Shown here: positions 18,405-36,873 of the stretch, in pieces
How the letters are laid out: each line of letters opens with the position of its first letter
How positions within the stretch are numbered: position 1 is the stretch's first letter
Assembly: GCF_018408575.1 (NCBI RefSeq)
Contig: NZ_AP023418.1
Coordinates: 1,578,415-1,642,414, forward strand
Length of the DNA: 64,000 nt
Origin: Vescimonas coprocola
Lineage (GTDB): Bacteria; Bacillota; Clostridia; Oscillospirales; Oscillospiraceae
Direction of reading: 5' to 3'
Position numbers and translations under genes: made by a program
The notes under the pieces: generated by a model
The model's input: the letters and a program-made list of their open reading frames with translations, nothing else
Told to the model about the DNA's origin: nothing
The model's database searches: none

Positions 18405-18435
18405 ATACCCAAACAAAGGAAAGGAGCTGACAGAT

Positions 18436-18759: not shown

Positions 18760-18773
18760 CGGGGGGTTCAGAT

Positions 18774-19704
18774 ATGAACAACAATCATGTTTATGATATG
18801 CTCGTGGTGGGCGGCGGCCCAGGCGGCTACACCGCCGCCCTGTACGCGGCACGGGCGGGGGCTGGACACCATCGTGCTGGAAAAACTGTCCGCCGGTGGG
18901 CAGATGGCACTGACCGAGCAGATCGACAACTATCCCGGCTTTGAGGACGGGATCGACGGCTTCTCTCTGGCGGAGAAGATGCAAAAGCAGGCGGAGCGCT
19001 TCGGGGTACGCAGCGAATACGCAGAAGTCCTCCGCATGGATCTGACGGCGGTTCCCAAGCTCTTGGAAACCAGTGAGGGGATCTTCCGGGGGAAAACCGT
19101 GGTGCTGGCCACCGGCGCAGACCCCAGAACGCTGGGCGTAGCCGGAGAGGCGGAGCTGTTGGGCCGGGGCGTGGCCTACTGCGCCGCCTGCGACGGGATG
19201 TTTTACAAGGGCAAAACGGTGGTCGTGGTGGGCGGCGGCAATTCCGCCGCGGCAGATGCCCTCCTTCTCAGCCGCGTGGCAAAAAAGGTGATCCTCGTCC
19301 ACCGCAGAGACACCCTGCGGGCCACCAAGATCTATCACGAGCCGCTGGCACAGGCCGAAAACGTGGAATTCCGTTGGAACAGCACCGTTTCCGCGCTGCT
19401 TTCCGGGGACAGGCTGACCGGCGTTCGCCTGCGGGACACCGTTACCGGTGAGGAAAGCGTGGTGGACTGCGACGGCGTATTTGTCAGCGTGGGCCGACAG
19501 CCCGCCACGGCGCTGGCGGCGGGTCAGCTATCGCTGGACAAGGGCGGCTATATCGTGGCCGGAGAGACCACGGAGACCAGCGTTCCCGGCGTTTACGCCG
19601 TGGGCGATGTGCGGACGAAGCCTCTCCGTCAGGTGGTCACCGCCGTGGCGGACGGCGCAGTGGCAGTCCACATGGCGGAAAAATATATCGCGGAAAACCG
19701 ATAA
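18774..19704 (+). pseudogene. trxB: Thioredoxin reductase, frameshifted near the 5' end
   Basis: The N-terminus from ATG 18774 (YDMLVVGGGPGGYTAALYAARAG) is the FAD-binding motif. The rest (LDTIVLEKLSAGGQMALTEQIDNY, redox site YCAACDGMFYKGK, NADPH loop VVGGGNSAAADA, GVYAVGDVRTKPLRQV) lies in the +1 frame. The switch falls in a run of five G at 18857-18861; four G would give a continuous gene of about 309 residues. It could be a sequencing error, a true mutation or slippage. Apart from this the protein is complete and pairs with the thioredoxin upstream. Confidence 0.85.
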
Positions 19705-19880
19705 GGGAGGTAGATTGAAAAAGCCGTGTTTAAGGTCAGGCCGGATACGACCGCAGTGGGGATGCCGACATATCTGCAAGGCAAACTGCCAGAGTGATGG
19801 CAGATAAGATAACCCATGTAAGATCGGGAGATATGTTGTCTCTCCATATCCAGTCCACGCAACAGTGAGCAACTGAACAC

Positions 19881-19917
19881 AAAACACAGCCACAGATGTA
19901 CTCTGCGGCTGTGTTTT
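19881..19917. terminator. Bidirectional terminator between trxB and the flavo-diiron gene
   Basis: Complementary arms AAAACACAGCCACAGA and TCTGCGGCTGTGTTTT (one mismatch) form a stem with A- and T-rich ends. This suits termination of trxB on the plus strand and of the convergent gene on the minus strand. Confidence 0.75.
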
Positions 19918-20063
19918 TATGCGTTCTCAAGACTCCGGTCTCGCCCCACACCACATCGTGACCTCAACCTGAGATGACGGTACTCTGCCCTTGGGACATA
20001 AAGCAAATGAGTAAGACCATCATCTGTACGAGAATAGCTGCAATAGCTGCGGTTTGTTGCAGC

Positions 20064-22237: not shown

Positions 22238-22272
22238 AGTGGTATCCTCCTATTCTGATGTCTTTGGTTTTC

Positions 22273-23316
22273 TTATAAATCGTCTATCAGTGCGGTGCTC
22301 TTGGCGTAGGCGGTACTGCGTGCCTCAAAGAAATCGGTCTTGACCATGTTGGCGTCGGCGTACTGGCTGACCCATTCCATGCTCTCCGGTTCGCTCTCAA
22401 AGCCCGGATACAATGCGGGATAGCCAAGGCTCGTCCAGCGAAGATTACCGAGATAGCGGATGTAATCGCTGATCATCTGCCGGTTCAGCCCGGGGATGTC
22501 GTCGCCGATCACATAATACCCCCAGGCGATCTCCTGCTCCACGCCCTCACGCATCATCTCGCGCAGCTCTTGTACGCTCTCGGCGGTGAACAACTCCGGC
22601 TGCTCCTTTTGCAGCTCCGTGATGATATTGCGGAACAGCCACAAGTGCGTGTTCTCATCGCGGTTGATGTAGCGAATCTCCTGCGCCGAACCGGACATCT
22701 TCCCGTTTCGGGAGAGATTGTAGAAGAACATAAAACCGCTGTAAAAATAGATGCCCTCCAAAATATAGTTCGCCATCATCACGCGCAGCAGCGTGGGAGC
22801 GTCCTTCCGCTCCTGAAACTCGTTGTAGCAGTTCCCAATGAAGGTGTTGCGGCGCAACAGATGCTCGTCCGTTTTCCATTGGTAAAGGATGTCATTGCGC
22901 TCCACGGGGGAACAGATGGTGTCGAGCATATAGCTGTAGCTCTGTGAGTGGACACACTCCTGAAACGCCTGAATGGACAGGCAGAGATTGACCTCGTTGG
23001 CGGTAATGTAGGCACCGATATTAGGCAAGTTCGCTGTCTGAATGGAATCCAAAAAGACAAGAAAACTCAGAATTTTATCGTAGGCGCTGCGCTCGGCTGA
23101 CAGTAGGCGGGGATAGTCCTTCACATCCTGCGAGAGATTGATCTCCTCAGGGATCCAAAAGTTGTTCATGGCCTGCCGGTACCAGTCGCTGACCCAAGCG
23201 TACTTCATATTGTTGAAGTCGTTGAGGTTGGTGGTATTGCCGCCGATCATGCGCCGCAGGCGCACATCAGGGTCGCCCTCCGGGTTAAAGAGGGGCTTTT
23301 TCTTCAGTTCCGTCAT
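22273..23316 (-). CDS. nrdB: Class I ribonucleotide reductase, beta subunit
   Basis: This 347-residue radical-generating subunit keeps all six metal ligands in order: Asp in FLDSIQ (about 90), ExxH in QECVHSQSY (about 120-123), Glu in LEGIYF (about 187) and E/H in RDENTHLW (about 220). The Tyr of SQSY is in place for a tyrosyl radical. Assembly of such a cofactor needs O2 or a flavodoxin partner. AAGGAGG precedes ATG 23316, ten bases after nrdA. Possessing this enzyme implies DNA precursor synthesis under some oxygen. Confidence 0.93.
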   Translation of the reverse strand: MTELKKKPLFNPEGDPDVRLRRMIGGNTTNLNDFNNMKYAWVSDWYRQAMNNFWIPEEINLSQDVKDYPRLLSAERSAYDKILSFLVFLDSIQTANLPNIGAYITANEVNLCLSIQAFQECVHSQSYSYMLDTICSPVERNDILYQWKTDEHLLRRNTFIGNCYNEFQERKDAPTLLRVMMANYILEGIYFYSGFMFFYNLSRNGKMSGSAQEIRYINRDENTHLWLFRNIITELQKEQPELFTAESVQELREMMREGVEQEIAWGYYVIGDDIPGLNRQMISDYIRYLGNLRWTSLGYPALYPGFESEPESMEWVSQYADANMVKTDFFEARSTAYAKSTALIDDL

Positions 23317-23326
23317 GCTATCCTCC

Positions 23327-25843
23327 TTATGACGAGCAGCTTTCGCAGTCCTCGACCTCAAGGGACTTGCTGCGGATGTAGTAGATCGTCTTGACGCCGC
23401 TGCGCCACGCATCCAGATACAGCGCCAGTACCTGCCGCATGGTGTAGTCGTTGGTGATATACAGGTTCATGCTCTGAGCCTGATCGATGTGCCGCTGGCG
23501 CACGCCTGCGGCCCGTACCGACCAGCTTTGGTCGATCAGATGCGCCGCCTTATAGTACCACCATGTATCCATAGAAAGCTCAGGGGCAACGCGGGGCAGC
23601 ATGCTGCCCTTTTTCTCCTCTAAGAAGAATTTCTTCATAATTGGGTCGATGCCCGCCGACGTGCCGGAGAGGATAGATGTGCTGGAGGTCGGTGCGACCG
23701 CCAGCAGATAGGCGTTGCGCATTCCCTGCACCGCCACCGTTTTCGCAAGCGCCTGCCACTTTTCGGAGGTATAACCCCGCTTTTCAAAATACGCGCCCGT
23801 CTGCCAGTCGCTGCCCTCAAAGAGCGTGTAATGACCCTTTTCCCGTGCCAGTGCTGTGTCCGCCTTGACGGCGGCGTAGTTGATGAGCTCGAACACTGCG
23901 TCGGTGAAGGCAAGGTGCTCATCGCTCTCCCAGCGGATGCCGCGCTTTGCCAGCATGTGGTGGTAGCCGCTGACGCCCAGACCGATGCTGCGGTACTTCT
24001 GATTGGTAAGCCGCGCGTATTCCAACGGGTAGAAGTTGAGGTCGATCACATTATCCAGTGCGCGGATGGCCGTTTCCACCGTGCGTTCCATATAGGCCTC
24101 GTCCTCCACCGGCAGATTACCGAGAGACAGACTCGCCAGGTTGCAGACCACAAACTCACCTGGGCGTGTAGCCGTCACCACCACTGTGTCGCCGTTCTCC
24201 GTGTGCACCTCAGTGCTGATATGCTCGATGGGCGCCATGTTCTGTGCGATCTCCGTGCAGAGATTGGAGCAATAGATCATTCCCGTGTGGCCGTTTGGGT
24301 TCATACGATTTACGCTGTCGCGGTTGAAGGCGAAGGGCGTGCCGGTCTCCACTGCCGAGCGAAGCACCAGCCGCACGATGTCCTTGACGGTGACGCTGCG
24401 CTTTTCGATGCGCGGGTCATTGACGCAGTCCAGATACCGCTTCTCCCATTCCGTACCCCAGTAATCCTCCAGCGCGTAGCCCTTGACCGTGAGGATCTCA
24501 TGCGGACACATGAGATGCCACGGCGCGTCTATGTTCTCCTCCGCCAGTCGCCAGAAGAGATCCGGATAGCACACGGCGGGAAACACATCATGCGCCTTCA
24601 TGCGGTCGTCGCCGTTGTTAGTGCGCAGTTGAAGGAATTCCGGCAGATCCCGGTGCCATGCGTCTAAGTAAACCGCCACAGCGCCCTGCCGCATCCCCAA
24701 CTGATCCACCGCCACGGCGGTGTCGTTGACCAGCCGGATCCAGCGGATAACACCGCCCGCCGCCCCTTGAAAGCCGCGGATGGTGCTGCCTGCAGCGCGC
24801 ACCTTACCGAAGTACATTCCCATTCCACCGCCGAATTTAGAGACCTTTGCGAAGTTGTCCAGCGAGCGGTAGATGCCGTCCAGACTGTCCGGCACAGTGT
24901 CCACAAAGCAGCTTGAAAGCTGATGGTAGGGCTTTCGTGCGTTGGACATGGTAGGTGTCGCCATCGTGACCTCCATACGGCTGAGCATATCGTAAAAGCG
25001 TTTTACCCACCCCATGCGGTCAGAGCCTTCGTTCATAGCAAGATGCAGCGCGATACCCAAAAACATCTCCTGCGGTGTTTCCAGCGGCACGCGGCTGCGT
25101 GACTGGATCACATAGCGTTTGAGCAGCAGGTCAAGGCCGGAGTAGGTGAACAGCTCGTCCCGTTCCGGGCAGAGAAAGTCCTCCGCCATGGCGATCTCCT
25201 CGTGGGTATAGTGGGCAAGAATATAGTCACCGTAGAGTCCCTTATCCGTCAGATAGCGAAGCCTGCCATAGAGGTCGCCGATGCCGCGCCCCTCCCATTC
25301 CTGTGCGTTGCGACAGCGAAAGGAGTGGTTCAGAAGCCGCGCCGCGATGAACTCCCACTTGGGTGCCTCTGCCGTAGTCAGCTCTACCGCTGCCTTGGTC
25401 AGTGCCTCAGCCCGCTCATCCTCCGTCATGCCCGGGCGACAGAAGCTCTCAAACTTCATTTGAAGCGCCGCGAGGGAGTAGATTTCCTCGGTAAAATCCA
25501 TCTGGATACGGCGCAGCACCTCGTCAAGCGAGTTATCCCCCACCGTCTGCGCGATGGTATGCCGGACGCGGCGCAGCGCAGACCGCTTTTCGCGATAGAG
25601 GATGTACGCCTTGGCCACCTCATAGTGTCCGCGCTCCATGAGCGTCCGCTCCACCTCGTCCTGCACACGCTCCACGGTGAGCGGCGCTGCGGCGGCGAGG
25701 TTGTCGAGAACGGCGGCGAGGATATCATTCAGTTCTCTGCTCCCGATCTCCAACCCCTGTCCATCAAACGCTTTCTTCATGGCGTTGAAAATTTTCTCCT
25801 GTTGAAAGGGAACAGACTTCCCGTTTCGTTTTCTGATCTCCAT
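23327..25843 (-). CDS. nrdA: Class I ribonucleotide reductase, alpha subunit
   Basis: This 838-residue catalytic subunit reduces ribonucleotides to deoxyribonucleotides. It has an N-terminal ATP-cone (EIRKRNGKSVPFQQEKI), substrate-reducing cysteines in SSCFVDT (about 312) and VVCNLASLSLG (about 566), the radical site NLCTEIAQN with Cys near 527, and a C-terminal thioredoxin-reducible pair in DCESCSS. ATG 25843 behind AGAGGA is the likely start; an in-frame GTG lies nine codons upstream. It forms an operon with nrdB and a nitroreductase. Thioredoxins encoded on both sides could supply its electrons. Confidence 0.93.
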   Translation of the reverse strand: MEIRKRNGKSVPFQQEKIFNAMKKAFDGQGLEIGSRELNDILAAVLDNLAAAAPLTVERVQDEVERTLMERGHYEVAKAYILYREKRSALRRVRHTIAQTVGDNSLDEVLRRIQMDFTEEIYSLAALQMKFESFCRPGMTEDERAEALTKAAVELTTAEAPKWEFIAARLLNHSFRCRNAQEWEGRGIGDLYGRLRYLTDKGLYGDYILAHYTHEEIAMAEDFLCPERDELFTYSGLDLLLKRYVIQSRSRVPLETPQEMFLGIALHLAMNEGSDRMGWVKRFYDMLSRMEVTMATPTMSNARKPYHQLSSCFVDTVPDSLDGIYRSLDNFAKVSKFGGGMGMYFGKVRAAGSTIRGFQGAAGGVIRWIRLVNDTAVAVDQLGMRQGAVAVYLDAWHRDLPEFLQLRTNNGDDRMKAHDVFPAVCYPDLFWRLAEENIDAPWHLMCPHEILTVKGYALEDYWGTEWEKRYLDCVNDPRIEKRSVTVKDIVRLVLRSAVETGTPFAFNRDSVNRMNPNGHTGMIYCSNLCTEIAQNMAPIEHISTEVHTENGDTVVVTATRPGEFVVCNLASLSLGNLPVEDEAYMERTVETAIRALDNVIDLNFYPLEYARLTNQKYRSIGLGVSGYHHMLAKRGIRWESDEHLAFTDAVFELINYAAVKADTALAREKGHYTLFEGSDWQTGAYFEKRGYTSEKWQALAKTVAVQGMRNAYLLAVAPTSSTSILSGTSAGIDPIMKKFFLEEKKGSMLPRVAPELSMDTWWYYKAAHLIDQSWSVRAAGVRQRHIDQAQSMNLYITNDYTMRQVLALYLDAWRSGVKTIYYIRSKSLEVEDCESCSS

Positions 25844-25889
25844 TTCGATCCTCTCATCTTCTCCGGTCACTTCTCATGTCCTTTTGGGC

Positions 25890-25933
25890 AAAGAGCGGGC
25901 AAGCGCAGTATCACGCTTGCCCGCTCTGTTTTT
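25890..25933. terminator. Bidirectional terminator after the second flavo-diiron gene
   Basis: A perfect stem of about 14 bp (AGAGCGGGCAAGCG / CGCTTGCCCGCTCT) separates the end of the Rrf2 to flavo-diiron operon from the promoter side of nrdA. T-rich tracts flank it, with five T on the plus side. Confidence 0.8.
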
Positions 25934-26008
25934 GAAAGCCGGTTTTTCTGCAGCCGACACGGCGGGGCTGTTTGTTATCTGTTGTCTTGGTTTTGGCTTT
26001 CCTGCCAG

Positions 26009-27220
26009 TTACTTCATAGATTCCAGAATGGCGTCCGCCAGTGCTTCCAGCTCAGTGCGCTTGTCCGTGCCCATGGACGAGGCGAGGCTGAGCCGCTCGT
26101 TGAGCACCGTCATGTTCTTAAGCTCATCGTTGACGAATTTCTGCATGAGGTCACCGGACTTCACCGCCCATGAGCCGTTTTCAATGATGGCAAAGGTGCG
26201 GTTTTGCAGATTCAGTGCCTTCATATCCATGAGGAAATCGTGCATGGCGGGATAGATGCCGAGGTTGTAGGTCACAGAGGCCAGAACAATGTGGCTGTAC
26301 TTAAACGCCTCGGAGATCAGCTGGGAGACATGAGTGGAGGACACATCGTACATCGCCACCTTGCTCATGCCCTTATCGCAGAGCGACGCCGCCAGCGCCT
26401 GCGCCGCGTTCTCCGTGTTGCCGTACATAGAGGCGTAGACGATGAGCACGCCCTGGGTCTCAGGGGCATAGCGGCTCCATGTGTCGTACTTTTCGATGAA
26501 CCAGCCCAGATCCTTGCGCCACACGGGGCCGTGGAGCGGGCAGATGTACTTGATCTGATTCAAAACGCCGCCGGCCTTTTTCAGCAGGAGTTGGATGTGG
26601 GGGCCGTACTTGCCCACGATATTGGTGAGGTAGCGGCGGGCGTCGTCCAGCCAGTCCCGCTCGAAGTCCACCTCGTCGGCGAACAGCTTGCCGTCCAGCG
26701 CGCCGAAGGTGCCGAAGGCGTCGGCGGAAAAGAGGACGCCGTCGGTGACGTCAAGGGTCACCATGGCCTCCGGCCAGTGGACCATAGGCGCGCCCACAAA
26801 GGTGACGGTGTGCTTGCCGAAGGAGAAGGTGTCGCCCTCCTTCACCTCGATGCACTCATGCCCGTCCACATGGAAACCGAACTGCCGCATGAGCATGAAG
26901 GCCTTCTCGTTGGAGATCAGCTTCACTTTGGGATGGCGCAGTAGGATCTCCTCAATGCAGGCGGCGTGATCCGGCTCCAGATGGTTGACCAGCAGATAAT
27001 CCAGCTCGCGGCCATCCAGCACATACGCCAGATTTTCCAAAAGCTGGCGGCAGGCAGACCAGTCCACCGTGTCAAAGAGCACCGTCTTTTCGTCCATCAG
27101 GCAGTAGGCGTTGTAGCTTACGCCCCGGGGAATGGGAAAGCAGTTTTCAAACAGGGCCAGGCGATGGTCGTTGGCGCCCACCCAGTAGAGGTCGTTCGTT
27201 ACTTTACGCACGCAATACAT
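26009..27220 (-). CDS. Flavo-diiron protein, FprA type (copy 2)
   Basis: This 403-residue flavo-diiron protein has a diiron domain with NHLEPDHAAC (about 80), MVHWPEAM, SADAFGTFG and CPLHGP, and a flavodoxin domain from LIVYASMYGNTENAAQALA (about 260). It reduces O2 and/or NO using rubredoxin-delivered electrons. It is the last gene of the operon Rrf2 - ACAD/EtfA/rubredoxin fusion - flavo-diiron, 22 bases after the fusion gene, so the rubredoxin domain of the fusion is its most likely electron donor. A strong hairpin follows. Confidence 0.93.
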   Translation of the reverse strand: MYCVRKVTNDLYWVGANDHRLALFENCFPIPRGVSYNAYCLMDEKTVLFDTVDWSACRQLLENLAYVLDGRELDYLLVNHLEPDHAACIEEILLRHPKVKLISNEKAFMLMRQFGFHVDGHECIEVKEGDTFSFGKHTVTFVGAPMVHWPEAMVTLDVTDGVLFSADAFGTFGALDGKLFADEVDFERDWLDDARRYLTNIVGKYGPHIQLLLKKAGGVLNQIKYICPLHGPVWRKDLGWFIEKYDTWSRYAPETQGVLIVYASMYGNTENAAQALAASLCDKGMSKVAMYDVSSTHVSQLISEAFKYSHIVLASVTYNLGIYPAMHDFLMDMKALNLQNRTFAIIENGSWAVKSGDLMQKFVNDELKNMTVLNERLSLASSMGTDKRTELEALADAILESMK

Positions 27221-27242
27221 CTTATCTTACCTCCTTCACGGC

Positions 27243-29156
27243 TCAAGCCTTTATAAATTGATCCTTCGTCTCCGCGCACTCGGGACACACCCACTCGGCG
27301 GGAAGCTGCTCAAAGAGCGTACCCGGCGCGATCTCGCCGTCCTCGTCGCCCAGCTCCGGCACATACTCGTAGCCGCATCCGCCGCACACATAGGTGTCGC
27401 CGATGGGCGTGGGCTTGGGCGGCGTAGGACGCTTCATCTTCGCCATCGGCGGCGCGGGCTGCTTCTCGCCGCTGTCCAGTGCGGCGGTGAGCAAGGGCAA
27501 AATCTCCATCACATCGCCCACGATGCCGTAGTCGCAGTTCTTGAAGATAGGCGCGTTACCGTTCTTATTGATGGCCACGATGGTGGAGGCATCCTTGATA
27601 CCCTTGAGGTGCTGGGACGCGCCGGAGATGCCGCAGGCGATGTACAGATTGCCGGTAAACTTCTGCCCGGACATACCCACATAGCGGTTCAGCGGCAGAT
27701 ACTTGAGGGTCTCCGCCACGGGACGGGAGGAGCCGATGGCCGCGCCGGCGGCCTTTGCCAGCGACTCTACCAGTTTCATGTTCTTTTTCTCCCCGATGCC
27801 CTTGCCCGCGGAGACCACCCGCTCCGCCTGCGGGATGGGCGTATCCATGGGGATGCCCACGGAGAAGTCGTGGCCGTCCTTCTTCAGTGCTGCCACAAGG
27901 TCGGCCACCTGCTGGGCGGCGTCCCCCTCCCGGAAGATGGTCTTTTTGCGGATGCCGGTGATGGGCGCAGGCTTTTTGGCCGCCGAACGGCTCTCGCCGC
28001 CGGAGCTCTTGCCCAGTCTGCCCACCAGATGAGAGGCGATGACCACCCGCTGGATCTCGTTAGTGCCCTCGTAGATGGTGGTGATCTTGGCGTCGCGGTA
28101 GGCCCGTTCCACCTCCATGCCCTTGAGGAAGCCGCTGCCGCCGTGGATCTGCAAGGCATCGTTGGTGACCTCCAGCGCGATGTCCGAGGCGTACATCTTC
28201 GCCATGGCGGACTCCATGCCGTAAGGTGCGTGCTGCTCCTTCAGCTCCGCCGCGGAGTAGATGAGGAACCGGGCGCAGCGCAGCTTGGTGGCCATATCCG
28301 CTAGCTTGAAGGCGATGCTCTGCTGGGCCGCGATGGGCTTGCCGAACTGAATACGCTCCTTGGAATAGCTCAACGCGTGCTCAAACGCGCCCTGGGCGAT
28401 GCCCAGCGCCTGCGCGGCGATGCCGATGCGTCCGCCGTCCAGCGTGGACATGGCAATCTTGAAGCCCTCGCCCTCCTTGCCCAACAGGTTTTCCTTGGGG
28501 ACCTTCACGTCGTTGAAGATCAGCTCCGCCGTGGAGGAGGAGCGAATACCCATCTTGTCATAGTGGTCGCCGAACGCAAAGCCCTTCCAGCCCTTCTCCA
28601 CGATGAAAGCGGAGATGCCCCGGGTGCCGATGTCCGGCGTGGTGACGGCGAAAACCACATAGGTGTCCGCCTTAGGGGCGTTGGTAATGAAGATCTTGCC
28701 GCCGTTGAGGAGGTAGTAATCCCCCTTATCCAGCGCCGTGGTCTCCGTGCCGCCGGCGTCGGATCCGGCGTTGGGCTCCGTGAGACCGAAGGCGCCGATC
28801 TTCTCGCCCTTGGCCAGCGGGATCAGATACTTCTTCTTCTGCTCCTCGGTGCCGTAGGCGAAAATAGGCCATGAGCCGAGGGAGACGTGGGCGGAGAGGA
28901 TGACGCCCGCGCCGCCGTCCACACGGGCCAGTTCCTCCACCGCGATGGCGTAGCTCAGGGCGTCCAGACCGGCGCCGCCGTACTCCTTGGGGTAGGGGAT
29001 GCCCATCCAGCCCAGCTTGCCCAGCTTCTTGACAGCCTCCTCGGGAAACTCATTGTTCTGATCCATCAGAAATGCGAGGGGCTTGATCTCCTCCTCCGCA
29101 AAGCTCCGGATCTTCGCGCGCAGCTCTTCGTGCGCCGCCGTGGTTTGAAACAGCAT
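27243..29156 (-). CDS. Acyl-CoA dehydrogenase - EtfA C-terminal - rubredoxin fusion
   Basis: This 637-residue protein has three parts. Residues 1-380 are a complete acyl-CoA dehydrogenase with the FGLTEPNAGSD flavin segment and the catalytic Glu in IYEGTNEIQR. Residues about 400-560 match the FAD-binding C-terminal domain of electron-transfer flavoprotein alpha (GSSRPVAETL, YIACGISGASQHLKG, NAPIFKNCDYGIVGD). Residues about 585-637 are a rubredoxin with CGGCGYEY and CPECA. The EtfA N-terminal domain and EtfB are absent. The layout suggests electrons pass from flavin to FAD to rubredoxin, and on to the flavo-diiron protein encoded next. It lies 22 bases after an Rrf2 gene. Confidence 0.9.
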   Translation of the reverse strand: MLFQTTAAHEELRAKIRSFAEEEIKPLAFLMDQNNEFPEEAVKKLGKLGWMGIPYPKEYGGAGLDALSYAIAVEELARVDGGAGVILSAHVSLGSWPIFAYGTEEQKKKYLIPLAKGEKIGAFGLTEPNAGSDAGGTETTALDKGDYYLLNGGKIFITNAPKADTYVVFAVTTPDIGTRGISAFIVEKGWKGFAFGDHYDKMGIRSSSTAELIFNDVKVPKENLLGKEGEGFKIAMSTLDGGRIGIAAQALGIAQGAFEHALSYSKERIQFGKPIAAQQSIAFKLADMATKLRCARFLIYSAAELKEQHAPYGMESAMAKMYASDIALEVTNDALQIHGGSGFLKGMEVERAYRDAKITTIYEGTNEIQRVVIASHLVGRLGKSSGGESRSAAKKPAPITGIRKKTIFREGDAAQQVADLVAALKKDGHDFSVGIPMDTPIPQAERVVSAGKGIGEKKNMKLVESLAKAAGAAIGSSRPVAETLKYLPLNRYVGMSGQKFTGNLYIACGISGASQHLKGIKDASTIVAINKNGNAPIFKNCDYGIVGDVMEILPLLTAALDSGEKQPAPPMAKMKRPTPPKPTPIGDTYVCGGCGYEYVPELGDEDGEIAPGTLFEQLPAEWVCPECAETKDQFIKA

Positions 29157-29178
29157 ACGGGTACCTCCTCTTAAAATT

Positions 29179-29610
29179 TTACAGCTCGCTTGTATCTTGG
29201 GGATCGGATCCGCCGGTCAGCAGCCTGCGCAGGCTCACGGCGCGGAACGCCTCGTCCTGCTTTCGCTGCAAGGCCGCCAGCTGATAGTGGATGGCGCACC
29301 GCCCGTGCTCGTCCTGCCAGCGGCACTCAAATCCCGGCTCCATGCAGGCGCACAGGACGCCCCGTTCCCCCATGACCCCCATGAGATCGTAGAGGGAGGT
29401 CGCATCCAGGTCGCAGGACAGTTCGCAGCCGCCGAGAGCGCCACGGCTCACCCGCACCAAATTGCCGGCGGAGAGCTTGCGCAGGATCTGGTAGGCAAAC
29501 TGATTGGGGATCAATTCCGTTTCCGACATCTCGGCCACCGAATGCTTCTCCCCGTCCAGCAGCACCCGCAAAATGCGCAGTGCGTAGTCCGTCTCTTTGG
29601 TGATGATCAT
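29179..29610 (-). CDS. Rrf2-family regulator with Fe-S type cysteines
   Basis: This 143-residue winged-helix regulator begins MIITKETDYALRILRVLL, typical of Rrf2. It has a recognition segment NQFAYQILRKLSAGNLV and wing GALGGCELS. Cysteines in GVLCACMEPGFEC plus one in HGRCAIH match the three-cysteine cluster site of IscR/NsrR-like members, which sense O2, NO or iron-sulfur status. Start 29610 has AGAGG nine bases upstream, so MRS at 29619 is less likely. It heads the operon with the ACAD fusion and flavo-diiron protein. Confidence 0.88.
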   Translation of the reverse strand: MIITKETDYALRILRVLLDGEKHSVAEMSETELIPNQFAYQILRKLSAGNLVRVSRGALGGCELSCDLDATSLYDLMGVMGERGVLCACMEPGFECRWQDEHGRCAIHYQLAALQRKQDEAFRAVSLRRLLTGGSDPQDTSEL

Positions 29611-29645
29611 GCTCCGCATCCTCTTTTCGCTTGCTTGTTATTGCC

Positions 29646-29677
29646 ATCATATCAATCTTGATAAATTTTGTCAAGAT
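29646..29677 (-). promoter_or_regulatory. Promoter and operator of the Rrf2 - ACAD fusion - flavo-diiron operon
   Basis: On the minus strand, TTGACA (29669-29674), 17 bases, TATGAT (29646-29651) forms a near-consensus promoter. A perfect inverted repeat ATCTTGA-N9-TCAAGAT (29655-29677) covers the -35 and spacer, where a bound dimer would block polymerase. The Rrf2 protein encoded first in the operon is the probable ligand. Confidence 0.78.
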
Positions 29678-29853
29678 AATTTCCAAAAAAATATCGCTTT
29701 TACACAGACCGCCCCAGCCCGGATCAGCTTCGCTTTCCATTCAGCGAAAAGCCATGTTCCTTCCAATTATAGAAGCCGAAAAAGCTGTGCCGTGGCAGCC
29801 CGCCGAAAGCAGAAAAGACTATGACTGAAAACCAGAAAACAGAGAAATCGGTT

Positions 29854-29902
29854 GGGGCTCTCAGCGATCACCCACCCAAGGCGGACGACCGCTGTGAGCC
29901 CC
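29854..29902. other. Hairpin in the 29.65-29.97 kb intergenic region
   Basis: Arms GGGGCTCTCAGCG and CGCTGTGAGCCCC pair with one mismatch around a 24-base loop. Between the Rrf2 promoter and the alarmone synthetase stop (29678-29968) I see no gene. The hairpin could end the operon that comes from the right on the minus strand, though no T-run follows. Confidence 0.45.
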
Positions 29903-29968
29903 GACAAGCCCAAGCTGTACACACGAAACAAGCAACAAAGAGCGTACTTGTCACTTTTATTCGACCCA

Positions 29969-30640
29969 TTATGTTATGATATGCAGTAAATGTTCCATCT
30001 TACCATCCCACTCTCTGCTGGAATCGGCGCACTCTTTCAGTTCAGTTTCGACTTCAGCATTTATCGGCACGTTTTTCTTATAGCGGATGGTATGCTCAAG
30101 GCTTGCCCAGAAGTCCATGGCGATTGTACGGAGTTGTATCTCCACCGGCACATGGATCTCTTTTTCCGCAAAGAATACCGGCAACCGGATCGTCAGGTGC
30201 AGACTGCGATAGCCATTTGGCTTAGGGTGTGAAATATAATCTTTCTCTGTGATGATTTCAATGTCGGACTGATCTTTTAAGCACTTTGCCAAAAAGAACA
30301 CATCCTCCTCGAAAGAGCAGATCACACGCACGCCGGCAACATCCATGATATTTGCCTGCATGGTCGGAAAATCCAGAGAAAGTCCGCGCTTCTGCATCTT
30401 ATTCATAATGCTGGACGGCGACTTCAAGCGGCTTTTCATACTTTCTATCGGATTGCGGTCATGCTGCAATGAAAACTCTTCGTTCAGAATTTCCAACCTG
30501 CTTTCAAGTGCTTTCAGTGCGCAGCGGTATTGCAGCATGACTTCCTGATACCTGCGATTTTCGCTTAAAAGGCGCTGGCATTGCAGATCATCCAAGCCTT
30601 TATCCGCCGCAACCGTCAAGCCAAATAGATTTTCACTCAT
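29969..30640 (-). CDS. Small alarmone synthetase, RelQ/YjbM-like (p)ppGpp synthetase
   Basis: This 223-residue single-domain RelA/SpoT synthetase would make (p)ppGpp from GTP/GDP and ATP. Visible motifs are DRNPIESMKSRLKSP, MDVAGVRVICSFEED, EKDYISHPKPNGYRSLHL and PVEIQLRTIAMDFWASLEH; no hydrolase domain is present. The start is ATG 30640, which overlaps the stop of the CoA-disulfide reductase gene by four bases; longer upstream frames overlap that gene. It is the last gene of a thiol-redox operon. Confidence 0.9.
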   Translation of the reverse strand: MSENLFGLTVAADKGLDDLQCQRLLSENRRYQEVMLQYRCALKALESRLEILNEEFSLQHDRNPIESMKSRLKSPSSIMNKMQKRGLSLDFPTMQANIMDVAGVRVICSFEEDVFFLAKCLKDQSDIEIITEKDYISHPKPNGYRSLHLTIRLPVFFAEKEIHVPVEIQLRTIAMDFWASLEHTIRYKKNVPINAEVETELKECADSSREWDGKMEHLLHIIT

Positions 30641-32331
30641 AGCTTCTCCATTCCGCAGGGATAGGCGCTCCGCGCTGTCTGCTGCTCTTTTGTTACGACC
30701 TGATAAAAGCTGTATCCGCTGGAGAGATGGGCACAGGTAAAACCATACTGCGTCAAAAGCCGGCAGGCCAGATAACTGCGAAGCCCTGTCTGGCAATTCA
30801 CATAGACAGGCTTGTCCCGGTCTAACTCGTCCAAGTGCTCCCGCAGATCGTCCAAGGGAATATTCCGAAAGCCATCCAGATGGCCCCGCTGATACTCCCA
30901 CGCCGTGCGGACGTCCAGCAGCGTCGCACTGCCATCGCAAGGCAACTCCTCAACCTCATTCCAATGGAACTGCCGCACTTTCTCGCTCTCCAAATCCTCG
31001 ATCATAAAACCGGCCATATTGACCGGATCCTTGGCAGAGGAATAGGGCGGCGCATAGGAAAGATCGAGCTCCGTCAGTTCCAAAGCTGTCATTTTTGTGC
31101 GAATGGTCGTTGCCAGTACATCAATGCGCTTGTCCACGCCCTCGCCGCCAACGATCTGCGCACCCAGCAGCCGCAGGCTTTCTTTTTCATACAGCACCTT
31201 CATTGCCATAGACTGTGCGCCGGGATAATAGGCAGCGTGGGATGCTGGGAACAATACGACTTTGTCGTAAGCGATCCCTGCTGTCTGCGCTACCTTCTCA
31301 TTGATCCCCGTAGAGGCCGCTGTCAAGCCAAACAGCTTCAGAACAGACGAGCCCTGAGAGCCGGTAAAGCGGCTGCTTCCGCCGCAAATATTATCAGCAG
31401 CAATTCGTCCCTGCTTGTTGGCAGGCCCTGCCAGCGAGATCAACGCTTTCTGGCCGGTCACGAAATGGGTGACCTCCACAGCATCGCCCACAGCGTAGAT
31501 GTCCGGCACGGAGGTTTCCATCCGCTCGTTGACAGCGATGCTGCCACGAATACCAAGCCTGAGTCCGGCTTCTTTTGCCAGATGGGTGTCCGGCGTGACG
31601 CCGATGGCCAGCAGCACCATGTCGGAGCGCAGTGGCTCACTTTCTTCCAACAGGGTCAGCACGGAATCTCCGTCCTGCCGGAATCCGGTGACGGTTTCAC
31701 CCAACCGCAGAGCCACGCCGTGTCTGCGCATTTCCGCATGGACAAAGCTCGCCATATCCGCATCCAGTGGTGCTAATAGCTGCTTGGGTCGCTGAACGAT
31801 GGTGACGGAAACGCCCATCTCCACAAGGTTCTCCGCCATTTCCAGACCGATAAAGCCGCCGCCAGCCAAAACAGCGGTTTTCGGCTTCTGATCCTCTACA
31901 AAGCGCCGAATGCGGAGGGTATCCTCCACGGTGCGCAGCGTGAAAACACGCTCACTGCTGACGCCGGAAAGCGCAGGAACTGTCGGCTTTGCGCCGGGGG
32001 CAAGGAGCAGTTTGTCATAGGTTTCCGTATAGATTTTCCCGCTGTCCAGTGCATGGACGGTAACGGTCTTCTCAGCGGGATTGATCGCAGTTACTTCCTG
32101 CCGTACCCGCACATCCATGCGAAAGCGGTCCCAGAAGCTCTCCGGAGTTTGGAGCGTCAGTTCTTCCCGATCCACGATCACACCGCCCACATAATACGGC
32201 AGGCCGCAGTTGGCGTAGGATACGTAGCCGCTGCGCTCGATCATGATGATCTGGGCGTGTTCATCCAAACGGCGGATGCGGGCGGCGGCAGAAGCACCGC
32301 CCGCCACACCGCCTACGATCACAACTTTCAT
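30637..32331 (-). CDS. CoA-disulfide reductase/NADH oxidase-like flavoprotein with C-terminal rhodanese
   Basis: This 564-residue enzyme has an N-terminal FAD loop GGVAGGASAAARIRR, the single redox cysteine SYANCGLPYY (Cys42) of the CoADR group, an NAD loop AGGGFIGLEMAENL and a dimerisation domain. A rhodanese domain covers about residues 460-560, with active-site Cys in YVNCQTGLRS. Such fusions reduce CoA disulfide, CoA persulfide or polysulfide with NAD(P)H. It overlaps the thioredoxin gene upstream and the alarmone synthetase gene downstream by four bases each. Confidence 0.9.
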   Translation of the reverse strand: MKVVIVGGVAGGASAAARIRRLDEHAQIIMIERSGYVSYANCGLPYYVGGVIVDREELTLQTPESFWDRFRMDVRVRQEVTAINPAEKTVTVHALDSGKIYTETYDKLLLAPGAKPTVPALSGVSSERVFTLRTVEDTLRIRRFVEDQKPKTAVLAGGGFIGLEMAENLVEMGVSVTIVQRPKQLLAPLDADMASFVHAEMRRHGVALRLGETVTGFRQDGDSVLTLLEESEPLRSDMVLLAIGVTPDTHLAKEAGLRLGIRGSIAVNERMETSVPDIYAVGDAVEVTHFVTGQKALISLAGPANKQGRIAADNICGGSSRFTGSQGSSVLKLFGLTAASTGINEKVAQTAGIAYDKVVLFPASHAAYYPGAQSMAMKVLYEKESLRLLGAQIVGGEGVDKRIDVLATTIRTKMTALELTELDLSYAPPYSSAKDPVNMAGFMIEDLESEKVRQFHWNEVEELPCDGSATLLDVRTAWEYQRGHLDGFRNIPLDDLREHLDELDRDKPVYVNCQTGLRSYLACRLLTQYGFTCAHLSSGYSFYQVVTKEQQTARSAYPCGMEKL

Positions 32332-32648
32332 CTTGCGCCCTCCACCATGGCGGTGATCTCCGGCTTAGGCCGATAGCCCACCGATTTGGCCACGGCTTTC
32401 CCGTCCTTGAATACGACCAGCATCGGGATGCTGGATACCTGAAAACGCATTGCCAGCTCCATCTGCTCGTCCACATTGACCTTGCCCACCTTGAGGGCAC
32501 CGGTGCTTTCCTCAGCGATCTCGTGGAGCACGGGAGCGAGCATTTTGCATGGTCCGCACCAGTCCGCGTAGAAATCCAGCAGGACGGGCTTGTCGGAACG
32601 CAGTACCTCGTTTTCAAAATTCGCAGCAGTAATTTTCAGTTCAGCCAT
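32328..32648 (-). CDS. trxA: Thioredoxin
   Basis: This 106-residue canonical thioredoxin has active site DWCGPCKM near residues 29-36 and the cis-proline loop SIPMLVVFKDGK. GGAG lies before ATG 32648. It is the fourth gene of an operon beginning with a ferredoxin-thioredoxin reductase-like protein, a ferredoxin and a membrane Fe-S protein. That upstream set is a plausible reductant source for it, distinct from the NADPH pair at 18.4-19.7 kb. Confidence 0.95.
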   Translation of the reverse strand: MAELKITAANFENEVLRSDKPVLLDFYADWCGPCKMLAPVLHEIAEESTGALKVGKVNVDEQMELAMRFQVSSIPMLVVFKDGKAVAKSVGYRPKPEITAMVEGAR

Positions 32649-32676
32649 GAGAACGGCTCCTTTCTGTTATCTTTGT

Positions 32677-33252
32677 TTATTCTTTGTTTTTCAGCTTGCA
32701 AATGCCCTGCGTCATGGTTCCCATCGGGCAAAACGCACACCATGTGCGGGGCTTGTAGAGCACCATAACGATCAGACCCAGCAGCAGAGAGGTCAGCATG
32801 AGGCTATAAAAGCCAAAGCTGAACTGCGCCACCCAATCAGCGACCGTCCCGGCTGTGTAAGTCCAGCCCCACGGCACACGGAAGGTCCAGAACAGCTTAA
32901 TGGCCTCCCGCAGGGACGCAGCACCAGCAGCGACCAGATAGGTCTGGAACACCATGTTGCCGAACATCGTCAGGAAAAAGATCAAAAAGCCGTAGCGGAA
33001 CCACTTGGAGGACATCCAGCGGGGCGTGGGCTTGCAGCGGGAGCATTTCAGGTCTGTCCCCAGCTTGCTGAACAGTTGACCCCGTCCGCAGAGGTGGTTG
33101 CAAAAGAATTTGTTCCCGCCAAAGATAGCTAAGAACAGCGGCAGAAGAAAATCAATCATGCCCAGCCATGCAAACAGGATGTTGAAAAAGCCAAGTGCAA
33201 AATAGATGATGGCATATACCCACAGGTAATCGTACCAATGCTTTGCTTTCAT
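32677..33252 (-). CDS. Membrane 4Fe-4S protein, NapH-like
   Basis: This 191-residue protein has about four transmembrane helices and two cytoplasmic cysteine clusters, CNHLCGRGQ with LKCSRCKPTP and CAFCPMGTMTQGICK, as in NapH/CcoG-like electron-transfer proteins. Its N-terminus overlaps the preceding ferredoxin gene (ATGA), so the two are coupled. It may pass electrons between a membrane donor and the ferredoxin. The exact partner is not evident. Confidence 0.8.
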   Translation of the reverse strand: MKAKHWYDYLWVYAIIYFALGFFNILFAWLGMIDFLLPLFLAIFGGNKFFCNHLCGRGQLFSKLGTDLKCSRCKPTPRWMSSKWFRYGFLIFFLTMFGNMVFQTYLVAAGAASLREAIKLFWTFRVPWGWTYTAGTVADWVAQFSFGFYSLMLTSLLLGLIVMVLYKPRTWCAFCPMGTMTQGICKLKNKE

Positions 33253-33452
33253 GCGTCAGCCCTCACTTTCACCTCAATGCAGCCGACGGGGCAGAGCTTT
33301 GCGCACTTGCCGCATCCTACGCATCGTTCCGCCTCCACGGCGGCGTAGCAGCCGCGGCGCACCTTGACAGCCCCCAGTGGACAGGTATTTTCACACACGC
33401 CGCAGGCGACGCACCGCGTCTTATCTATGGAAGCCAGTTTCTTTGACAGCAT
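33249..33452 (-). CDS. 2[4Fe-4S] ferredoxin
   Basis: This 67-residue bacterial ferredoxin has two CxxCxxCxxxCP motifs, CVACGVCENTCPLG and CVGCGKCAKLCPVG. GGGAGG precedes ATG 33452. It sits between the ferredoxin-thioredoxin reductase-like gene and the membrane Fe-S protein gene, and is the obvious electron carrier linking them. Confidence 0.92.
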   Translation of the reverse strand: MLSKKLASIDKTRCVACGVCENTCPLGAVKVRRGCYAAVEAERCVGCGKCAKLCPVGCIEVKVRADA

Positions 33453-33464
33453 AGTGTTCCTCCC

Positions 33465-33668
33465 TTAATCCTGCAAGGATTTGTAATAGAGCATACAGTG
33501 GCAGAATCCCTCAAAGCCCGGATCTGCAATTTGATCCTTAAACTCCTGGCACATACATTTGGTTGCCTCTGTGCGTTCTCTGCGGCAGGGACAGTATCCG
33601 CCGGTGCGCTTGAGTCCTTCCCGGATGGTATTGACAATCTCCTGATCGGGATTGAGCTTGATTTTCAT
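33465..33668 (-). CDS. Ferredoxin-thioredoxin reductase catalytic-chain-like protein
   Basis: This 67-residue protein carries the cysteine signature of the ferredoxin:thioredoxin reductase catalytic subunit: GGYCPCRRE (18-26), KCMCQEF and GFCHCMLYY, that is CPC...CxC...CHC, binding a 4Fe-4S cluster next to an active-site disulfide. The family passes ferredoxin electrons to thioredoxin. ATG 33668 follows GAGG. It is the first gene of the operon, with ferredoxin next and thioredoxin fourth, and has a CRP/FNR-like site upstream. The variable chain of the plant enzyme is not seen. Confidence 0.87.
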   Translation of the reverse strand: MKIKLNPDQEIVNTIREGLKRTGGYCPCRRERTEATKCMCQEFKDQIADPGFEGFCHCMLYYKSLQD

Positions 33669-33698
33669 GTTCGCCACCTCTTTCTTTATCGTGGCTTT

Positions 33699-33740
33699 AT
33701 CATACCGCATGGCAAAGCATTTTTCTGTGACGAGGTCACA
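33699..33740 (-). promoter_or_regulatory. CRP/FNR-type site and -10 box of the FTR-thioredoxin-CoADR operon
   Basis: The palindrome TGTGAC-GAG-GTCACA (33726-33740) lies upstream of a minus-strand -10 TATGAT (33699-33704). The distance from its centre to the far end of the -10 is 34 bases, identical to the site before the thioredoxin gene at 18436. Both are centred near -41. This is a class II activator geometry. Confidence 0.78.
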
Positions 33741-33764
33741 TTACGGAAATTTTTGTACAAACCC

Positions 33765-33810
33765 AAAAGAGCTGTGAAGCAGTATGTAAGATACCGCTTC
33801 ACAGCTCTTT
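33765..33810. terminator. Terminator between rubredoxin and the FTR operon promoter
   Basis: Perfect arms AAGAGCTGTGAAGC and GCTTCACAGCTCTT with a 15-base loop and A/T-rich flanks would terminate transcription of the rubredoxin gene on the minus strand. Confidence 0.8.
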
Positions 33811-33834
33811 ATTTATAGGTCCTGTTGTACTTCT

Positions 33835-33993
33835 TTACTCAGCCGCAGAAAACTGATCTTTGCCAACTGAACATAAGGGGCATTCAAAATCATCCGGAAT
33901 ATCCTTCCATTTTGTACCCGGTGCAATGCCGCCTTCCGGATAGCCCTTTTCTTCATCGTATTCCCAACCACACACATCACATACATATTTCAT
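33835..33993 (-). CDS. Rubredoxin
   Basis: This 52-residue stand-alone rubredoxin begins [20 protein letters not shown] and has its second cysteine pair in [13 protein letters not shown], giving the Fe(Cys)4 site. GGAG lies before ATG 33993. It can carry electrons to flavo-diiron proteins, desulfoferrodoxin and rubrerythrin, all encoded within 15 kb. A hairpin follows its stop. Confidence 0.93.
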
Positions 33994-34082
33994 AATGAAA
34001 TTCTCCTTTGATGTTTTTTATTTCGCACACAACATTAGCCCGACTTTATCGTCATCAGAAACAATAACGATTCCTATCTTAC

Positions 34083-34295
34083 TCAAAGAATATCCACAGC
34101 TTCCGCTTGTTTTACTCTCTTTGTTTTCTTATTCCCTGAAATCATTTTATGACCCGTATATACTGCCATAACCATGCAGATCAAGGAACTAAGCGCAAGG
34201 TACTTATGCGTTGTTTTTGAGCCTTTATATCCAGTGCAAAAAGTTCCAAACATGGTAATTACCGCTCCGATTGACCAATATTTATGTGCTTTCAT
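34083..34295 (-). CDS. Small two-helix membrane protein, DUF6219-like
   Basis: This 70-residue protein has two hydrophobic helices (WSIGAVITMFGTFCTGY, YLALSSLICMVMAVYTGH) and a basic C-terminus. ATG 34295 follows GGAGG; the longer frame would include that ribosome site. It lies between rubredoxin and desulfoferrodoxin genes on the same strand. No function can be assigned from the sequence. Confidence 0.65.
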   Translation of the reverse strand: MKAHKYWSIGAVITMFGTFCTGYKGSKTTHKYLALSSLICMVMAVYTGHKMISGNKKTKRVKQAEAVDIL

Positions 34296-34371
34296 GACTT
34301 GTTTGCCTCCTGCCTGCAATACATGACATTCAGTTCTCTATGTCGGTTCTAAGATACCATGCGCGGAACGA

Positions 34372-34746
34372 TCACGCTTTCCACAGACTGTGGAGGTTGC
34401 AGTAGGCGTAGACCGCCTCGACCTCGTCGCCCTCGCAGAGAGCGAAGCAGACCTCCGGCTTTTCGCCGGGATGCAGTTCCTTACGCTGGTTGCCCTGCTT
34501 GGTGTGGAGGGACACCCACTCGATGTAGTGCTCCGGCAGCATGGGATGCTCCACGGAGCCGACCTTGACATGGACGATGCCGTTTTCCACAGTCCAGACC
34601 GGGACGTGCTTCTCCACGGCGGCGTCGGTGGTGCCGGGGATGATCTCGCTCATCGGCTCACCGCAACAGATGACGGGAACGCCCGTGTCCTTGACCTTGG
34701 CAATGATGTTGCCGCAATGCTTGCAAATGTAAAACTTCTGCTCCAT
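34372..34746 (-). CDS. dfx: Desulfoferrodoxin (superoxide reductase)
   Basis: This 124-residue two-iron superoxide reductase has an N-terminal desulforedoxin-like centre (YICKHCGNI, VICCGEPM) and a C-terminal catalytic iron site with ligands in VEKHVPV, GSVEHPMLPEHYIEW and YCNLHSLWKA. It reduces superoxide to peroxide using rubredoxin. AAGGAG precedes the start. It lies 20 bases after the rubrerythrin gene, which would reduce the peroxide formed. Confidence 0.95.
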   Translation of the reverse strand: MEQKFYICKHCGNIIAKVKDTGVPVICCGEPMSEIIPGTTDAAVEKHVPVWTVENGIVHVKVGSVEHPMLPEHYIEWVSLHTKQGNQRKELHPGEKPEVCFALCEGDEVEAVYAYCNLHSLWKA

Positions 34747-34766
34747 GATTCGTTCTCCTTTTCTCT

Positions 34767-35308
34767 TTAATAGTTTTCCGCGTGAATTTCAAAGTAGCTC
34801 TGGGGATGGTTGCAGGTCGGGCAGACCTCCGGGGCCTTCTCGCCCACGACGATGTGACCGCAGTTGCGGCACTCCCACACCTTGACCTCGCTCTTGGCGA
34901 AGACCTCCGCCATCTCCACATTGTGCAGCAGGGCACGGTAGCGCTCCTCATGGTGCTTTTCAATGGTGGCTACCAGGCGGAAACGCTGGGCCAGTTCATG
35001 GAAACCTTCCTCATCGGCGGTTTTGGCAAAGCCGTCGTACATATCCGTCCACTCGTAGTTCTCGCCCTCAGCGGCGGCGAGAAGATTTTCAGCAGTGTCG
35101 CCAATGCCGTTCAGCTCTTTGAACCACAGCTTGGCGTGTTCCTTCTCATTATCAGCGGTTTTGAGGAACAACGCCGCGATCTGCTCGTAGCCTTCCTTCT
35201 TGGCCTTGGATGCAAAATAGGTGTACTTGTTGCGTGCCTCGGACTCACCGGCAAAGGCAGTCATCAGGTTTTTTCGGTTTGAGTACCTGCGTATTTTGTT
35301 TCTTTCAT
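34767..35308 (-). pseudogene. rbr: Rubrerythrin, frameshifted near its start
   Basis: The ferritin-like diiron domain ([33 protein letters not shown]) and the C-terminal rubredoxin domain ([24 protein letters not shown]) are intact. However, the natural start [13 protein letters not shown] at ATG 35308 behind GGAG is out of frame: a run of six A (35269-35274 on the minus strand) needs seven to join it to [10 protein letters not shown]. As read, translation stops after 14 codons. Re-initiation at ATG 35264 would yield 165 residues, but no ribosome site is present. Error, mutation or slippage are all possible. Confidence 0.85.
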
Positions 35309-35340
35309 GGTCGATGCTCCTTTCAGTTTTTTCTGCTCAC

Positions 35341-35369
35341 ATTATAATACGGATTCGTGTTAAAAACAA
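35341..35369 (-). promoter_or_regulatory. Promoter of the rubrerythrin-desulfoferrodoxin genes
   Basis: On the minus strand, TTGTTT (35364-35369), 17 bases, TATAAT (35341-35346) lies about 30 bases upstream of the rubrerythrin ATG at 35308. Confidence 0.65.
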
Positions 35370-35374
35370 TATTT

Positions 35375-36031
35375 TCATTTTAAGTGATTCAATCCGCCTG
35401 TATCCCGCAGCGTGATTGCGCCTCGTCTTAGCTCCACCAGTCCGTCCTCCGAGAAGCTTTTGAGCATCCGTGCCACCGCCTCCCGCGCCGAGCTGATGTG
35501 CTGGGCGATCCGCTCATGGGTCATGCGTATGGTATCGGAGCCGGTACGCTCCGCTTCGGCAAGAAGAAATTCTGCCAGCCGCCGATCCAAACCCTTGAAC
35601 ATGATCTGCTGCATCGCCCACATCACATCAGAGAACCGCTTCGTTGCCAACTCATAGAGGAAGCAGCGGACATATAGATTTTTCCCCTTGAGCGCAGCAA
35701 TGACATTTGCGGGGATAACCAGAACCTCCGTATCCATTCCCGCGGTCATTTGCGTATCAAAGGTGATCTGACTGATTACACAGGAGGCAGAAAGCACGCA
35801 TAATTCGCCCGGATACAGGCGGAACAGCGTTACCTCCCGCCCCTCCTCGGAGAGAAGATAGGTGCGAATCTCGCCGGAAAGGACGAACAGCATTCCAAGA
35901 CATTCGTTGTCGCTGCTGCGTACGAATGCACCCCTTTCATAATGACGGACAAAGGCACTTCGGCGTAGCGTTTCCATTTCATGTTCGGTCAAGGATGACC
36001 AGAACGGAAGTTGTGTCAGTGTGCGTTCCAT
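35375..36031 (-). CDS. CRP/FNR-family transcriptional regulator
   Basis: This 218-residue protein has an N-terminal cyclic-nucleotide-binding-type beta-barrel (residues 15-130) and a C-terminal winged helix (MTHERIAQHISSAREAVARMLKSF). The recognition helix keeps R-E-x-x-x-R, the residues CRP and FNR use to read TGTGA/TTGAT half-sites. Cysteines in ECLG, GELCVLSASC and VRCF may sense redox state, but there is no N-terminal FNR cluster motif. Start 36031 overlaps the end of the upstream gene. It is the natural candidate to bind the two TGTGAC-N3-GTCACA sites at 18.4 and 33.7 kb. Confidence 0.87.
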   Translation of the reverse strand: MERTLTQLPFWSSLTEHEMETLRRSAFVRHYERGAFVRSSDNECLGMLFVLSGEIRTYLLSEEGREVTLFRLYPGELCVLSASCVISQITFDTQMTAGMDTEVLVIPANVIAALKGKNLYVRCFLYELATKRFSDVMWAMQQIMFKGLDRRLAEFLLAEAERTGSDTIRMTHERIAQHISSAREAVARMLKSFSEDGLVELRRGAITLRDTGGLNHLK

Positions 36032-36032
36032 A

Positions 36033-36812: not shown

Positions 36813-36831
36813 GAACACGCCCCCTTTGTTT

Positions 36832-36873
36832 TCGGTATATACCGATTATAACGCTTTAGACAGGAAAAAGCAA
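36832..36873 (-). promoter_or_regulatory. Promoter with perfect palindrome ahead of the DUF134 gene
   Basis: On the minus strand, TTGCTT (36868-36873), 17 bases, TATAAT (36845-36850) is followed at once by the 14-base perfect palindrome TCGGTATATACCGA (36832-36845). It sits at the transcription start and may be an autoregulatory site for the DUF134 protein. Confidence 0.7.

Follow-up and report, generated by a model that had tools for sequence, protein, structure and literature searches.

An Rrf2–fusion–flavodiiron gene unit in Vescimonas coprocola

A 64,000-nucleotide stretch of the genome of the gut bacterium Vescimonas coprocola (contig NZ_AP023418.1, positions 1,578,415 to 1,642,414; hereafter the window, whose numbering is used throughout) carries on its minus strand a three-gene unit that encodes, in this order, an Rrf2-type regulator, a fusion protein and a flavodiiron protein (FDP), with both intergenic gaps 22 bases long. 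The regulator matches PF02082 (E 9.4e-17) in the frame 29179–29619, which gives 146 amino acids from an earlier start; the second ATG, at 29610, is the likelier start because AGAGG sits 9 nt upstream of it, and yields 143 amino acids (29179–29610). By Pfam, the fusion (27243–29156, 637 amino acids) joins the N, M and C domains of an acyl-CoA dehydrogenase to the C-terminal FAD domain of EtfA (PF00766, residues 441–521) and a rubredoxin (PF00301, residues 589–634), while the FDP (26009–27220, 403 amino acids) consists of ODP beta-lactamase and flavodoxin domains. Ahead of the regulator, on the same strand, a perfect 7-9-7 inverted repeat, ATCTTGA-N9-TCAAGAT (29655–29677), overlaps a sigma-70-type promoter-like site, TTGACA-17-TATGAT (29646–29674, 11 of 12 matches). 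The three genes, a promoter and the perfect repeat had been named in a preliminary description made from the DNA letters, and all are present, on the minus strand. That description knew of no account of such a unit; in fact, the enzyme was described in 2024 and the neighbourhood of regulator and enzyme in a preprint of July 2026 (PMC13404960).

The enzyme in question is butyryl-CoA:oxygen oxidoreductase (BOOR), characterised in Fusobacterium nucleatum as the BCR subunit FN1424 together with the FDP FN1423 (Bystrom & Wolthers 2024, Biochemistry 63:2352, as related in the review PMC12288474). The F. nucleatum BCR is described as a fusion of a Bcd domain, the EtfA C-terminus and a rubredoxin, with the flavodiiron gene adjoining (PMC12288474; cf. 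PMC12630350), and accounts of BOOR define it by butyryl-CoA-dependent O2 reduction, an alpha4beta4 complex and no reduction of nitric oxide (NO). The V. coprocola fusion has the same composition. As the preliminary description had it, the fusion carries the EtfA C-terminal domain without the N-terminal one or EtfB, and Pfam finds no EtfA N-terminal domain, EtfB or NAD-binding domain in any of the three proteins of the unit. Bifurcating Bcd–EtfAB complexes combine full-length EtfA and EtfB with the dehydrogenase; the unit has the EtfA FAD domain only. Among NCBIfam models, acryloyl-CoA reductase comes closest to the dehydrogenase part (490.9 bits, under its cut-off of 640). Among the best 60 of 202 structure matches, the best for the fusion are acyl-CoA and butyryl-CoA dehydrogenases, and none of these 60 covers the fusion past residue 398.

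The residues on which catalysis and electron transfer would depend are strongly conserved. The glutamate of YEGTNE (E363), which we take to be the acyl-CoA base, does not vary among the 85 aligned fusions; what are presumably the four rubredoxin cysteines are kept in 84–85 of the 85; and the seven positions that we take to be diiron ligands are invariant in 77 of 77 aligned FDPs. These alignments include near copies and leave out open frames of odd length (4 of 89 BCR and 5 of 82 FDP frames). By analogy with F. nucleatum, we infer that the fusion and the FDP make up a BOOR-type enzyme with the same catalysis. The same genome encodes enoyl-CoA hydratase, 3-hydroxyacyl-CoA dehydrogenase, acyl-CoA dehydrogenase, and EtfB- and EtfA-type proteins in a row of genes (locus L176), and its rnfC scores over cut-off; the genome thus has the pathway that supplies the substrate as well as the partners in energy conservation that the review names. 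A further FDP, with a C-terminal rubredoxin-like domain, is encoded about 1.1 kb past the enoyl-CoA hydratase end of this butyrate-type cluster (L176:12382-14019), and together with two in the window it brings the FDPs of the genome to at least three.

Other features surround the unit. The preliminary description had a hairpin closing the operon. A hairpin with a 14-bp stem does lie between the flavodiiron gene and nrdA (25892–25927, unstranded), but its T-run is on the plus strand only and the tail on the operon's strand reads TTTGCCC; it is therefore not a canonical intrinsic terminator of the BOOR operon. The ribonucleotide reductase genes (22273–25870) come next on the same strand and, with the T-run on the opposite one, read-through into nrdAB is possible. 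Between 25700 and 30100, Rfam gave no match. The ribonucleotide reductase small chain is presumably of the ferritin-like class I type, and genes for thioredoxin (32328–32648), desulfoferrodoxin (34372–34746) and rubrerythrin (34767–35264; the latter two by Pfam) are also close by. Directly upstream of the promoter, a frame at 29969–30940 contains a RelA/SpoT domain (PF04607, residues 170–290, E 8.9e-34) and is probably a small alarmone synthetase. A second Rrf2 regulator (17754–18245, PF02082) is encoded between a ferritin gene and a disulfide-reductase gene (18787–19704).

The inverted repeat and the BOOR promoter

To compare loci, species genomes were scanned with the EtfA–rubredoxin part of the fusion and the best 80 of at least 440 relatives (at least 597 pattern matches) were kept, a sample that leans to close relatives. 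The gene order that the preliminary description expected to be conserved holds for the enzyme pair: a flavodiiron gene lies no more than 1 kb downstream of the fusion in all 75 uncut loci, the other 5 being cut there. The regulator is less constant: only 41 of 73 loci have an Rrf2 gene within 700 bases upstream of the fusion (7 of the 80 were not assessable, and two of the 41, L073 and L101, have fewer than 700 bases upstream). Of 391 genomes drawn evenly from the class, 31, V. coprocola included, encode the C-terminal part of the fusion (E 1e-50 or better); within the genus, 7 of 31 other genomes, several of them incomplete, have the full-length fusion. Among 47 aligned Rrf2 proteins, near copies included, two of the three cysteines are present in every sequence; the third, and Asp8, are each kept in 46.

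The perfect repeat occurs without mismatch once in the 2.56-Mb genome, which also has one single-mismatch site. The –35 box TTGACA lies in the left arm of the repeat, and the 17-bp spacer contains the right arm. A promoter scan found 2 sites of the TTGACA-17-TATGAT type against 1.4 expected; a count so near expectation proves nothing alone, and support comes from comparison across species. From 47 upstream regions we obtained 45 anchored sites, of which 33 are non-redundant; one, L034, is anchored in the wrong register and adds noise. The layout of repeat and promoter recurs in these 33 Rrf2-linked sites, with the –35 and –10 boxes conserved as in any promoter. Complementarity between the arms reaches 4.70 of 7 at a spacer of 9, against 1.00–3.09 at the other 27 spacings. 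Since conservation of the left arm is partly due to the –35 box, the right arm carries the operator argument; its TC-n-A positions are conserved in 32, 31 and 31 of the 33 sites (0.97, 0.94 and 0.94).

The repeat also tends to be present where the regulator is. We defined an operator core of 13 positions, CTTGACANNNNTTNTCNAG, and counted as a site any match with no more than 2 of these 13 mismatched, which about 0.3% of shuffled sequences contain. Such a site is found within 200 bases upstream of Rrf2 at 34 of 38 Rrf2-linked loci and within 400 bases upstream of the fusion at none of 33 loci without Rrf2 (four have a 3-mismatch site), the derivation of the pattern from Rrf2 loci favouring the first figure and not the second. 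The first count drops 3 of the 41 Rrf2 loci, which have under 150 nt upstream of Rrf2, and the second includes L082, with about 680 nt upstream. On a quick BCR tree in which 29 of 74 inner branches are weakly supported, presence of Rrf2 requires 8 changes, at least 5 of them forced by well-supported branches; the co-occurrence of operator and Rrf2 therefore does not go back to one inherited event.

Genome-wide, exact core matches in nine genomes fall at 7 places, every one a BOOR promoter, and the BOOR sites of Clostridium fessum and Oscillibacter sp. MSJ-31 have one mismatch each. With one mismatch allowed there are 35 strand-hits, 15 of them at BOOR promoters. An off-register control, with the core gap one base shorter, gave 2 exact matches, neither at a BOOR promoter, and matched no BOOR site. 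These comparisons argue that the repeat is a conserved operator of Rrf2-linked BOOR loci, a regulatory addition to the known neighbourhood of enzyme and Rrf2. Most simply read, Rrf2 would repress its own operon and have a single strong target, the BOOR promoter, to which it would bind at the repeat.

Control, electron flow and competing explanations

Taken together, the unit is very probably a BOOR operon with its own, self-regulating Fe–S Rrf2 switch, in which butyryl-CoA feeds the reduction of O2 and repression is relieved by O2 or NO. For the catalytic steps we rely on the F. nucleatum enzyme. Butyryl-CoA or another short acyl-CoA would reduce the dehydrogenase FAD of the fusion, and electrons would then pass through the EtfA-type FAD domain and the fused rubredoxin to the FMN and finally the diiron site of the FDP, which would reduce O2 to water. 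Crotonyl-CoA would go back to the bifurcating Bcd–EtfAB, so that O2 would be removed and low-potential electrons for Rnf regained. The control steps, binding and signal alike, are inferred with support from the comparison of loci. Under anoxia, cluster-bearing Rrf2 would occupy the 7-9-7 operator, over the –35 box and the spacer, and repress all three genes; O2 (or NO) would damage the cluster and lift repression. Cluster loss driven by O2 is proposed on the precedent of RirA, an O2-sensitive [4Fe-4S] Rrf2 repressor that releases DNA once its cluster is lost or altered (PMC5863699).

Several observations, beside the origin of the core pattern and the share of the –35 box in the left arm, count against this reading. 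In 32 of the 73 loci no Rrf2 gene lies upstream, so BOOR can do without it. The G that follows TC-n-A in the right arm is conserved in just 0.55 of the 33 sites. Of the one-mismatch core hits in nine genomes, 20 strand-hits lie outside BOOR promoters, compared with 12 for the reversed pattern; likewise, with up to 3 mismatches the perfect repeat matches 118 places per strand in its own genome, where the reversed control matches 49. A regulon beyond BOOR, sought with the operator pattern in the nine genomes, was not established, and weaker sites are possible. As for the enzyme, an AlphaFold2 model of the fusion, built from 26 sequences, is poor (mean pLDDT 62), the likeness to F. nucleatum BOOR is judged by described architecture, and the sequence does not tell the acyl-CoA substrate range.

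The alternative that survives best concerns the signal. Rrf2 could sense iron or Fe–S supply in the manner of RirA or IscR, with O2 inducing BOOR merely indirectly. The TGA-N9-TCA spacing of the operator is close to what we take to be that of the RirA box, and RirA is reported to integrate iron and O2 (PMC5863699). However, exact operator cores in the nine genomes, where weaker sites were not assigned to genes, are at BOOR promoters only, and the regulator scores far under the cut-offs of the IscR, RirA and SUF regulator equivalogs of NCBIfam (best 39.1 bits, against 110.65). We consider iron sensing unlikely.

A second alternative is a defence against NO, in which Rrf2 would be an NsrR-type NO sensor and the FDP would mainly reduce NO, with acyl-CoA as donor. 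The preprint likens the Asp8 and three cysteines of this Rrf2 group to those of NsrR (PMC13404960), and FDPs in general are able to reduce NO (PMC12288474). In contrast, the F. nucleatum BCR–FDP complex is reported in the same review to lack NO reductase activity, and the neighbouring desulfoferrodoxin, rubrerythrin and ribonucleotide reductase small chain point to O2 and its products. Nor does Rrf2 reach any NCBIfam cut-off, that of the superfamily model TIGR00738 included (60.7 bits against 73.3). A role chiefly in NO defence is thus quite improbable. Hardly credible at all is a route in which the EtfA domain takes electrons from NADH, directly or via an unlinked EtfB, and passes them by way of rubredoxin to the FDP: reduced pyridine nucleotide is the donor in most other flavodiiron systems (PMC12288474) and the domain resembles the genome's full-length EtfA (41% over 121 residues), but by Pfam the three proteins of the unit lack an EtfA N-terminal domain, EtfB and an NAD domain, and the acyl-CoA base is invariant. 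Of the routes suggested in the preliminary description, from acyl-CoA or NADH to O2 or NO, the one from acyl-CoA to O2 matches the F. nucleatum pair as the review presents it; NADH is unsupported and NO disfavoured.

Movement between lineages and relation to known systems

The operon DNA of V. coprocola is 95.8–96.7% identical to that in five records, those of C. fessum, Faecalibacterium prausnitzii (two), Oscillibacter sp. MSJ-31 and Oscillibacter sp. ER4, which by their labels belong to two families, Clostridiaceae and Oscillospiraceae. Over its aligned parts, rpoB is 71.2% identical in C. fessum, 76.1 and 75.8% in F. prausnitzii, 82.5% in MSJ-31 and 81.0% in ER4. For a genome of the same genus, operon and rpoB values agree (87.1 and 87.8%). 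A genome of another family (G048, 67.6 and 70.5%), Sinanaerobacter (74.8 and 68.7%) and A. colihominis (77.2 and 72.1%) have no comparable excess of operon identity, so recent transfer is not seen in every genome. In C. fessum, a stretch of 14.66 kb (window 22246–36900), collinear at 94%, shares its contig with the divergent rpoB, which argues against contamination as the cause of the near-identical copy, for C. fessum only. A sharp break at 29762, upstream of the operator, is common to three genomes (G061, G063 and G064). Transfer of the BOOR unit between distant lineages is well supported by these sequence comparisons.

It is evenly poised, in our judgement, whether BOOR, the Fe–S Rrf2 switch and the operator together form an aerotolerance cassette that is complete in itself, moves horizontally and has recently passed between families of gut Clostridia with a butyrate pathway. 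In such a cassette, O2 would serve as the recipient's sink for butyryl-CoA, and expression would be set by the unit's own O2 sensor, not by host regulators. O2 that leaks from the gut wall acts as a selective force among strict anaerobes, and BOOR would give up butyrate in exchange for O2 removal. Almost identical copies in the records of C. fessum, Faecalibacterium and Oscillibacter suggest a trait shared by transfer and not by descent alone.

A wider oxygen-defence region (15992–37651) is common to distant gut Clostridia in long pieces, about 89–97% identical. It encodes ferritin, the second Rrf2, a disulfide reductase, a second FDP, a nitroreductase, ribonucleotide reductase, BOOR, a CoA-disulfide reductase–rhodanese, thioredoxin, desulfoferrodoxin, rubrerythrin and Crp. 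Recurrent breaks are seen at 18405, 19924, 29762 and 34371; in C. fessum and the two F. prausnitzii records, the piece 18405–19924 is inverted relative to the piece next to it. Next to this region, a 17.8-kb mobilisable element (37652–55413), with a MobA/MobL relaxase, a conjugative-transfer ATPase fragment and serine recombinases (44504–46891, 50593–52164 and 52904–54523), splits a stretch of DNA that in Oscillibacter sp. MSJ-31 runs without a gap (G062:C3:167825|167826).

The BOOR enzyme and an Fe–S Rrf2 beside it were already known; the conserved operator and the horizontal movement of the unit are what the present analysis adds. Like F. nucleatum BOOR, the V. coprocola enzyme has acyl-CoA dehydrogenase, EtfA C-terminal domain and rubredoxin on one chain and an adjoining flavodiiron gene; its presumed acyl-CoA base, rubredoxin cysteines and diiron ligands are intact. 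Unlike the F. nucleatum operon, described as bicistronic in a review that makes no mention of Rrf2 (PMC12288474), the V. coprocola unit has Rrf2 as its first gene.

Another close counterpart is the neighbourhood of the preprint (PMC13404960), in which an Fe–S Rrf2 (C0FN14, with Asp8) adjoins BOOR in the gut Clostridia Roseburia inulinivorans, Eisenbergiella tayi and F. prausnitzii, rubrerythrin, thioredoxin and ribonucleotide reductase are enriched nearby, and oxidation of the Rrf2 cluster is proposed to induce BOOR. The V. coprocola window has Rrf2 with Asp8 and the same three neighbours near BOOR, and the derepression proposed here is the same. The main text of the preprint never mentions an operator, promoter, palindrome, motif or binding site, and refers to horizontal transfer once, for OxyR/PerR. 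A defined operator makes the proposed Fe–S control directly testable.

Among Rrf2 proteins generally, the regulator is a three-cysteine member like RirA and NsrR, both [4Fe-4S] repressors; NsrR, too, lets go of DNA when its cluster is lost or altered. RirA governs a broad iron regulon, whereas for the Rrf2 of BOOR exact operator cores were found at one promoter per genome.

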